From Sulfurovum sp. TSL6 (lineage in GTDB: Bacteria; Campylobacterota; Campylobacteria; Campylobacterales; Sulfurovaceae): a stretch of DNA of 64,000 bases. Location of the stretch: positions 186,001-250,000 of the forward strand of contig NZ_BPFJ01000003.1 in NCBI RefSeq assembly GCF_019972115.1, given 5' to 3'. Below the pieces are notes generated by a model. It was not told the DNA's origin. It ran no database searches and saw only the letters and a program-made list of their open reading frames with translations. This document shows positions 14,049 to 16,273 of the stretch, one piece after another; the first letter of the stretch is position 1, and each line of letters opens with the position of its first letter. The position numbers and the translations under genes were made by a program.

Positions 14049-14966
14049 ATGTGTAATAGTAATAAATTTCAAGATTTATCAAAACTTTCAAAAAAACTTA
14101 ATTTGCTCTATTATGAGTATGATAAATATCAAAATTCTTTTTTAGTAGATAGCAGATATGAAAAAGAGACGACTTATCCGGACTTAATTAAACTGACTTA
14201 TGCACTATCAAAGCATAATATTGGATTTTTTAAAGATGAACGAGCCAATGTAGCCATTTCATCATCAAGGAATTTATTTTCTTCCTTAAAACAAAGAATA
14301 AAAAATATCTCTTATGACTTAAAAAGTTTACAAAAAAATATCTATGTTCTTAGTGATAAACAAGTAAGGTATGCTAAAAATCTACCAATGATACAAACAA
14401 TAGGGATCCATTCTAACATAGACATTACTCAATATGATGCATTGATATTTACATCTAAAAATGGAGTCAAACACTGCGACTCTTTGTTCTCATCTGAATG
14501 GAAAAAAATACCCGCATATGCTATTTCAAAAGATACTGCTAAATATATAAAAGAGCTTAAGGGTAAATTGGCTTTCACAGGAAAAGAAAAACATGGAGAT
14601 GAATTCGCTTATGAACTTGTAGATCACCTAAAAGGTAAAAAGATAGCCTACCTGGGTGCACAATCTATTGTTTCTAATTTGATAGAGGTCCTACATAATA
14701 ATCATATTCAGTGCGATCATATACCTGTGTATAAAACGGTGTGTAGAGATTACGACAATAAGATAAAACTACCTTCCCATTCTATTATTATATTTTCCTC
14801 ACCTTCTACAATCGAATGTTTTCTTAAAAATGTTGAATGGGATAAAAGTTTTACAGCCATCAGTATTGGTAGAACGACTGCAAAATATTTTCCTGACTTC
14901 ATTCATCCTATCATGTCGGACACTCCTTCTTTGAAAAGTTGTGTGTGTAAAGCATTGAGTTTATAG
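14049..14966 (+). CDS. hemD: Uroporphyrinogen-III synthase-like protein with an extra N-terminal region
   Basis: A 305-residue protein. Residues 97-305 look like HemD, which closes the tetrapyrrole ring in haem synthesis: a YVLSDKQVRYAKNLP opening, DALIFTSKNGV, a central KGKKIAYLGAQ and a late SIIIFSSPSTIECF followed by ISIGRTTAKYF. Residues 1-95 are a lysine-rich, mostly helical segment I do not recognise, and no start codon exists near the usual HemD start, so the extension belongs to the same frame. The gene is strongly A/T-rich compared with neighbours and has 261 and 178 bases of non-coding sequence around it, which may point to transfer. Confidence 0.7.
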   Translation: MCNSNKFQDLSKLSKKLNLLYYEYDKYQNSFLVDSRYEKETTYPDLIKLTYALSKHNIGFFKDERANVAISSSRNLFSSLKQRIKNISYDLKSLQKNIYVLSDKQVRYAKNLPMIQTIGIHSNIDITQYDALIFTSKNGVKHCDSLFSSEWKKIPAYAISKDTAKYIKELKGKLAFTGKEKHGDEFAYELVDHLKGKKIAYLGAQSIVSNLIEVLHNNHIQCDHIPVYKTVCRDYDNKIKLPSHSIIIFSSPSTIECFLKNVEWDKSFTAISIGRTTAKYFPDFIHPIMSDTPSLKSCVCKALSL

Positions 14967-15358: not shown

Positions 15359-15688
15359 TTAATCGTTGCATCCATTAGGTGGAACACCATCTTTTGCATA
15401 TTTTACTGAGTATGCATAAATGTCTTTCCAGTATTTTTTTTCAATCGTCTCTATCGTAAGTTTTGGACAAATATTTTTTGCTTCCTGTGGAAATTTACCA
15501 GTTTCATAGATATGTTCCCACTCTGCTTGTAAGTGATGTCTGGCGAACATAACACCTGAAAATCCGCATTTTTTATAAAAATTCTTTTTATATATGCGTT
15601 GCCCTTTTTTTACCCCTGCCATAGAGCTTGTTGGTATACTCATTGATATCAGCAGCGAAAGTGCGACAACTCCGATTACTTTTCTCAT
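15359..15688 (-). CDS. Periplasmic cysteine-containing protein, cytochrome-like but without a haem motif
   Basis: A 109-residue exported protein with a signal peptide ending near A24 (SMAG). The mature part (GQRIYKKNFYKKCGFSG, a paired H51-H52 and a late NGC) resembles small periplasmic proteins of sulfur-oxidising Campylobacterota that are sometimes named as c-type cytochromes, but no CxxCH haem site is present. Cysteines are C41, C74 and C107. AAGGGG precedes the ATG. It is divergent from the DsrE-like gene, with a shared 17-bp inverted repeat between them, suggesting joint control and a linked role. The role itself is not known. Confidence 0.65.
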   Translation of the reverse strand: MRKVIGVVALSLLISMSIPTSSMAGVKKGQRIYKKNFYKKCGFSGVMFARHHLQAEWEHIYETGKFPQEAKNICPKLTIETIEKKYWKDIYAYSVKYAKDGVPPNGCND

Positions 15689-15716
15689 ATTGTTCCCCTT
15701 GATAAGTTTTGATAAC

Positions 15717-15722
15717 AGTATA
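15717..15722 (-). promoter_or_regulatory. Putative -10 box of the minus-strand periplasmic protein gene
   Basis: TATACT when read on the minus strand, 29 bases before the ATG at 15688. The inverted repeat at 15722-15760 begins at its upstream edge and covers the -35 position. Confidence 0.45.
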
Positions 15723-15760
15723 TATTAAAAACGTTAAGCTTAACTTAACGTTTTTAATAT
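15722..15760. promoter_or_regulatory. Operator-like perfect inverted repeat between divergent genes
   Basis: Two perfect 17-base arms (15722-15738 and 15744-15760, arm ATATTAAAAACGTTAAG) surround a five-base centre CTTAA. The repeat overlaps the -35 region of both divergent promoters, which is where a dimeric repressor would block both genes. It is upstream of both genes, so it is not a terminator. Confidence 0.75.
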
Positions 15761-15779
15761 GAGTATAAGAAAGATCGCT

Positions 15780-15785
15780 TATAAT
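15780..15785 (+). promoter_or_regulatory. Putative -10 box of the DsrE-like gene
   Basis: TATAAT lies 38 bases before the ATG. Its -35 position falls on the right end of the inverted repeat. Confidence 0.5.
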
Positions 15786-15823
15786 AGAAAAGTAAGTAAT
15801 TTAAATCCAGGAGAGTAATCATA

Positions 15824-16273
15824 ATGATGAAAAAATATATATTTCTAATAGCAGGTGTACTGAGTTTTACGCAGGCACAAGAGTATAAGTCTGTTTTCGA
15901 CTGCAGTTCAAATAATGCACGTTTCGTGATGACACGTATGAACTTAATAGAAAGAACCATGAATATGATCGAAAAGGATGGTGACAAGGCAAACTTTGCC
16001 ATTACCCTTCATGGTGGATGTGTCCCTATGGTTTCTGATGTGTATGATGAAATAACCCCTGAGGAGGATATGCCCTACATAAAGATGGCACAGGAGAGTA
16101 TTATACGATTGTCTCAAACGAAAAAGGTGAAAATTATCGTCTGTGCTATGTCATTGAATGCACATGCAATTGACAAAAAGGAAGTTTTACCTTTTATTCA
16201 TATATCTAAAAATAGTTTTATCGATACTATCGGTTTACAAAATAAAGGTTATGCACTGATGACATTTAAGTAA
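15824..16273 (+). CDS. Periplasmic DsrE-family-like protein
   Basis: A 149-residue protein with a signal peptide (about 1-18). The pattern RFVMTRMNLIERTMNMIE, then FAITLHGGCVPMV, then KIIVCAMSLNAH is that of DsrE/DsrF-like proteins, where a cysteine in the last segment (here C107) can carry sulfur. Other cysteines are C27 and C66. Exported DsrE-like proteins are common in sulfur-oxidising Campylobacterota, so a role in periplasmic sulfur handling is a reasonable inference but not shown. GGAGAG precedes the ATG pair at 15824/15827. It is divergent from the Cys-containing protein. Confidence 0.75.
   Translation: MMKKYIFLIAGVLSFTQAQEYKSVFDCSSNNARFVMTRMNLIERTMNMIEKDGDKANFAITLHGGCVPMVSDVYDEITPEEDMPYIKMAQESIIRLSQTKKVKIIVCAMSLNAHAIDKKEVLPFIHISKNSFIDTIGLQNKGYALMTFK

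Follow-up and report, generated by a model that had tools for sequence, protein, structure and literature searches.

A perfect inverted repeat between two divergent genes of Sulfurovum sp. TSL6 is very probably the operator of a MerR-family repressor encoded in trans. It lies in a 64-kb window, the whole stretch of DNA that was analysed, and its regulator would be a 225-aa protein (G000:C1:750652-751326, G000 being the window's genome); we hold this assignment, with the full mechanism set out below, in good confidence. The palindrome, its conservation, a two-locus regulon, co-occurrence of regulator and operator, the predicted promoter geometry and an invariant cysteine of the regulator are all read from sequence, and from them we infer binding, repression, a ligand and a role in sulfur metabolism. 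The predicted pair of regulator and operator can be tested directly, as can its two-locus regulon, the conserved geometry of its predicted promoters and its one candidate sensing residue. To our knowledge, little has been worked out about how free-living Campylobacterota of vents and sulfidic sediments control transcription in their sulfur metabolism. A literature search, mostly outside subscription journals, gave no description of this regulon among the matches listed, and no MerR regulator appears in the passages covered of a review on regulation in Campylobacterota (PMC6682613).

In the proposed mechanism, a MerR dimer would bind the dyad AACGTTAAG-N5-CTTAACGTT. At the home locus of merR the operator would cover both the predicted start of a CMD/AhpD operon and the merR -35, such that binding would silence the two promoters, a case of autorepression for merR. 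In the window the operator would cover the promoter region of a gene pair for a three-cysteine protein and a small membrane protein; for dsrE, on the other side, it would now stand upstream of the promoter because the genes yeeA-yeeB and a second operator have been lost. A signal at the C-terminal domain, plausibly through the invariant Cys180, would release MerR and so induce a small periplasmic/redox sulfur-handling set.

Table 1. Coordinates, in the window, of the palindrome, the flanking genes and the predicted promoter elements
Feature	Position	Strand	Remarks
Small single-helix membrane protein, 62 aa	15145..15333	-	follows three-cysteine gene
Three-cysteine protein, exported-looking, 109 aa	15359..15688	-	C41, C74, C107; no CXXCH
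Predicted -10 TATACT of three-cysteine gene	15717..15722	-	identical in four closest relatives
Operator O1, perfect 17-bp inverted repeat	15722..15760	.	arms 15722-15738 and 15744-15760, 5-nt loop
Predicted -10 TATAAT of dsrE	15780..15785	+	from yeeE promoter; invariant in five aligned sequences
Position of second operator O2 of G137/G138/G097	15788..15810	+	degenerate in window: best 10/18 specified bases mismatched
DsrE-family protein, exported-looking	15824..16273	+	Pfam PF02635, 43.0 bits vs cut-off 22.7

The 17-bp repeat is real, as the original prediction had it: its arms, ATATTAAAAACGTTAAG and CTTAACGTTTTTAATAT, are 5 nt apart, and its core occupies 15730-15752. Among inverted repeats with loops of up to 12 nt these are the longest arms in the window (runner-up 12 nt), and 40 dinucleotide shuffles of the window gave a maximum of 12. 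The repeat is kept in the orthologous intergenic region of all four closest relatives (G137, G138, G097, G090), where its absence had been named as a point against the prediction. Long, perfect, AT-rich intergenic inverted repeats can also be structural or mobile, for example the end of a MITE or a bidirectional terminator, or may arise by chance. This one, however, is flanked by divergent starts and not by convergent ends, positions 15500-16000 gave no terminator-like site, the genome holds only two copies, both at promoters, and the position is conserved across relatives in addition to the arms lying far beyond the shuffles. We regard such an origin as extremely improbable; chance and repeat elements were rejected on the shuffles, the two promoter copies and the lack of a terminator-like site in that interval.

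The search of the genome for the repeat arm that had been suggested gave no further palindromic copy. At up to 2 mismatches the arm occurs in the window (both arms) and once singly at C3:409106; the latter was rejected as a further operator, being non-palindromic in a locus (L003) with no core at up to 5 mismatches. Searching with the core did yield a second site: at up to 3 mismatches the 2.25-Mb genome has one other, G000:C1:751381-751403, with 1 mismatch. Base composition predicts 0.004 sites at ≤1 mismatch, the level of both sites found, and 1.6 at ≤3. A wider regulon was rejected, with no third genome site at ≤3 mismatches and none further at ≤4 in the window or in loci L078 and L080; locus L079 has one site at 4 mismatches.

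The second site, on another contig, lies between the gene for the 225-aa protein and a divergent CMD/AhpD-family gene, which is followed by genes for a 64-aa protein and a thioredoxin-like protein. The 225-aa protein scores above the cut-offs of two MerR models (PF13411, 59.8 bits against 21.6; PF00376, 28.9 against 28.2). A regulator encoded away from the window had been anticipated, and this protein is the candidate.

Regulator and operator occur together. Across 175 genomes of the family, 25 carry a MerR orthologue (at least 60% identity), and the core at ≤2 mismatches is present in 19 of these 25 and in 1 of the 150 without an orthologue (Fisher p 3e-19; the genomes are related and the counts not independent). 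The lone exception (G170) has one site. Comparing coordinates by hand placed every one of the 37 sites in the 19 genomes: 29 are beside merR and 8 in the three-cysteine/yeeE/dsrE intergenic region. In the other six genomes with an orthologue the only sites have 3-4 mismatches, and they lie beside merR. A backward control pattern gave scattered single matches, one falling in a genome with an orthologue, and at ≤3 mismatches the core itself is found at chance level (72/175 genomes).

A second set, of named genomes, comprises 80 loci from Sulfurovum (closest Sulfurovum sp. AR, 85%), Sulfurimonas, Sulfuricurvum and Campylobacterota bins, 65 of them with a MerR at 44% identity or more and 15 at 38% or less. 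Because the two sets draw on some common source genomes and are related, their counts overlap and must not be added. For MerRs of at least 45% identity, the core (≤5 mismatches) is found within 130 bp upstream of merR at 59 of 64 loci, mostly 70-71 bp from the merR start. Three of the remaining five have a diverged or one-base-shorter form (L173, L175, L221) and two have none (L174, L198). None of the 15 distant loci has a site at ≤4 mismatches. Partner genes among the 65 loci, many cut by contig ends, encode CMD (45), DsrE (33), thioredoxin-like (20), 64-aa (14), YeeA (11), three-cysteine (11) and YeeB (9) proteins; at the 15 distant loci none of these was found. One genome bin, Sulfuricurvum sp. 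STA_65, carries two MerR loci (L196, L197) on different contigs, with the same identity, layout and operator.

Co-occurrence alone cannot tell a regulator from an obligate target, and the palindrome might be bound by a different regulator for which merR is merely one target. Against this, the operator keeps a nearly constant distance upstream of merR (modal 70-71 bp) in loci of Sulfurovum, Sulfurimonas and Sulfuricurvum, also where another gene is divergent from it, and the distant-MerR loci lack it; nor was any other helix-turn-helix gene seen to recur as a neighbour throughout the loci read. We consider this reading quite improbable and MerR itself the putative protein that binds the palindrome.

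All promoters discussed here are predicted from sequence. At all 59 named-genome merR loci with an operator, a -10-like hexamer on the divergent strand ends 1-6 nt before the operator; it is a perfect TATAAT in 54, compared with 1 perfect hexamer on the opposite flank of these operators. This places the operator across the predicted start of the divergent operon as well as the -35 region of merR. On the merR strand a TATAAT-like -10 follows beyond the core (53 perfect; 13 nt away in 42). A TATAAA after the core was dropped as the CMD promoter once the conserved TATAAT before the core had been found.

This predicted, start-site-covering layout is the geometry of a plain repressor, unlike the spacer geometry of classical MerR proteins, whose operators, according to a review (PMC9909328), are usually found in 19-20-bp spacers. 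Our MerR could nonetheless be such a classical activator, switching on the three-cysteine promoter with its ligand across an over-long -35/-10 spacer; the protein has the family's helix-turn-helix, and the window core is just upstream of the conserved three-cysteine TATACT, close to the place expected of a spacer operator. However, the divergent -10 puts the operator at the predicted start at 59/59 merR loci, the merR -10 lies some 13 nt past the core, O2 at yeeA starts 3 nt after TATAAT in G097 and by eye no good -35 is seen at the 19-20-bp distance. The predicted promoters of the 59 merR loci do not show a 19-20-bp spacer arrangement, the three-cysteine promoter of the window alone being compatible with it. 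Activation of this kind is unlikely in our view, and the predicted geometry fits repression in the manner of HnoC and McdR.

In the window the repeat had been described as overlapping the -35 positions of both promoters. This holds for the three-cysteine gene, where TATACT places the predicted -35/spacer on the core. It does not hold in the same way for dsrE: the core is ~28 nt upstream of TATAAT, at about -62 to -40, which for this predicted promoter is no classical blocking position, and of the repeat just the outer arm, which ends at 15760, extends to the -35 position. In relatives with merR adjacent, the three-cysteine promoter shares the layout of the merR loci, with a TATAAT/TACAAT-like hexamer beside the core; in the window subgroup the best conserved three-cysteine -10 is on the opposite side of the operator from that layout.

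The arrangement on the dsrE side can be followed through relatives. In ten further genomes (L068-L077) merR and the three-cysteine gene stand together (about 770 bp apart in G139) and are divergent from CMD and dsrE in one locus, where an operator lies on either side of merR. Among the ten, G136 has a YeeA-YeeB pair ahead of CMD-dsrE. The dsrE of G136 is broken over two frames (L068:2717-3258), by a frameshift or a sequencing error. In the window genome and its four closest relatives the merR/three-cysteine locus is split, and on a 2.19-Mb contig of G097 the merR operator is ~611 kb from the three-cysteine operator. In G137, G138 and G097 two YeeE/YedE-type half transporters (PF04143 59.3 and 70.7 bits in G137, cut-off 27) lie between the three-cysteine gene and dsrE, and the yeeA promoter has a pair of operators spaced by 58-60 bp. 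A search of the window's genome gave no YeeA relative, and in the window dsrE directly follows the former yeeA promoter. G090 has also lost yeeA and yeeB, with a remnant resembling the yeeB 3' end before dsrE.

As read from these alignments, the window lineage has lost two YeeE-type genes and the second operator beside dsrE, and control of dsrE by MerR is for this reason less certain. The three-cysteine/membrane-protein pair, kept in all four closest relatives, is likely the controlled unit at the window. The suggestion that a single repressor could switch both sides fits the three-cysteine side well; the dsrE side goes back to a yeeE promoter, whose own second operator is degenerate in the window. 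The first operator has been kept though the regulator gene is far off and the transporter pair has gone from between it and dsrE. In G097 (L067:661-3006) and G090 (L066:1674-3047) an ArsM-like methyltransferase gene is convergent with the membrane-protein gene, preceded in G097 by a MerT-like/rhodanese fusion; it is not there in the window.

The flanking genes are much as originally described: one for a DsrE-family protein (above the PF02635 gathering score) and, divergent from it, one for a three-cysteine protein, then a small membrane protein, export signals being judged by eye only. Cys107 of DsrE is invariant in 10 of 10 aligned homologues. The three-cysteine protein reached the cut-off of no Pfam or NCBIfam family. 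C41, C74 and C107 are invariant across 14 aligned rows; adding three more distant Sulfuricurvum relatives leaves only C107. It had been said to look like a cytochrome relative without a haem site. The CXXCH motif is indeed absent from the window protein and its aligned homologues; the cytochrome likeness is weak, the helical predicted model (pLDDT 81.7) having cytochromes as best Foldseek matches at E 5.8 (8yts) and 9.7, and VIA-align giving Z 3.4 over 66 residues (11 chains examined, 2 with Z of at least 2).

Related genes occur elsewhere in the genome. A small cytochrome-like protein with CXXCH comes after two tandem three-cysteine paralogues (L078:6091-6855; G000:C1:411090-411854), and before them are a response regulator, a kinase-like gene and one more CXXCH protein; this locus has no operator core at ≤5 mismatches. 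Two more distant, exported-looking DsrE-like proteins (G000:C3:394097-394525 and G000:C1:428674-429093) are 21-26% identical, and one of their genes adjoins thioredoxin-like and histidine-kinase-like genes. In the window, 14049-14966 (+) encodes a uroporphyrinogen-III synthase domain at residues 113-299, with no Pfam match in the N-terminal ~110 residues.

The MerR protein offers a candidate sensing residue. C180 occurs in every one of the 64 orthologues, as the sole cysteine in 40 of them and in the reference MerR, and in none of the 15 distant homologues. An AlphaFold model (pLDDT 83.7, pTM 0.58) shows, besides the MerR domain, a further helical/winged segment and long helices in the C-terminal part; its best match among solved structures is SCO5550 (2dg6, E 2.3e-4, TM 0.44-0.47). 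A thiol-based signal would be the natural guess. The link to sulfur made by the original prediction is one of guilt by association, and a sulfur species is a putative signal. More tentatively, and as a doubtful extension, MerR may sense sulfane sulfur or other thiol-reactive sulfur species through this single cysteine of the C-terminal domain and act as a pure start-site repressor of YeeE-DsrE-AhpD sulfur uptake/relay. If true, this would be a previously undescribed sulfur sensor of MerR type, parallel to those of ArsR and CsoR type and widespread in Sulfurovum, Sulfurimonas and Sulfuricurvum. In Sulfurovum indicum a sox-linked dsrE, which may or may not correspond to the window dsrE, is more expressed with thiosulfate according to PMC10045233.

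Several known systems resemble this one in part. Like the NmlR/AdhR branch, the protein has a MerR helix-turn-helix (NCBIfam NmlR model NF041849, E 1.7e-8). AdhR of B. subtilis also controls a CMD-family gene, yraC. Unlike that branch, our protein reaches 34.5 bits against an equivalog cut-off of 175, is 225 aa with a long C-terminal domain and has its only cysteine, C180, outside the helix-turn-helix region. It also resembles the long MerR proteins SCO5550 (2dg6, its best fold match), Rv1828 (C-terminal domain, 5ydd) and FtsR; the FtsR model matches residues 13-184 (E 2.2e-10), but at a score of 41 against a cut-off of 150, and no link to cell division was seen.

SoxR and sHdrR of Hyphomicrobium are described (PMC11582611, PMC12423496, PMC10451225) as ArsR-type sulfane-sulfur repressors, with a YeeE-like SoxT. 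Our system would likewise join a predicted repressor to YeeE-like transport and sulfur genes (compare PMC11582611), with a MerR protein in Campylobacterota in place of their ArsR fold. A parallel in working mode is with HnoC, McdR and, at PtnsB, CvkR, which PMC9938897 describes as plain repressors of MerR type whose palindromes cover the start site/-10. Like these, our protein combines a MerR DNA-binding domain with a palindrome predicted to overlap the transcription start/-10, and with no spacer-distortion geometry. It differs from them in operator sequence, in an operator that also covers the -35 region of its own gene, and in its predicted targets, DsrE, CMD, three-cysteine and YeeE genes of Campylobacterota, whose repression would follow from that geometry.
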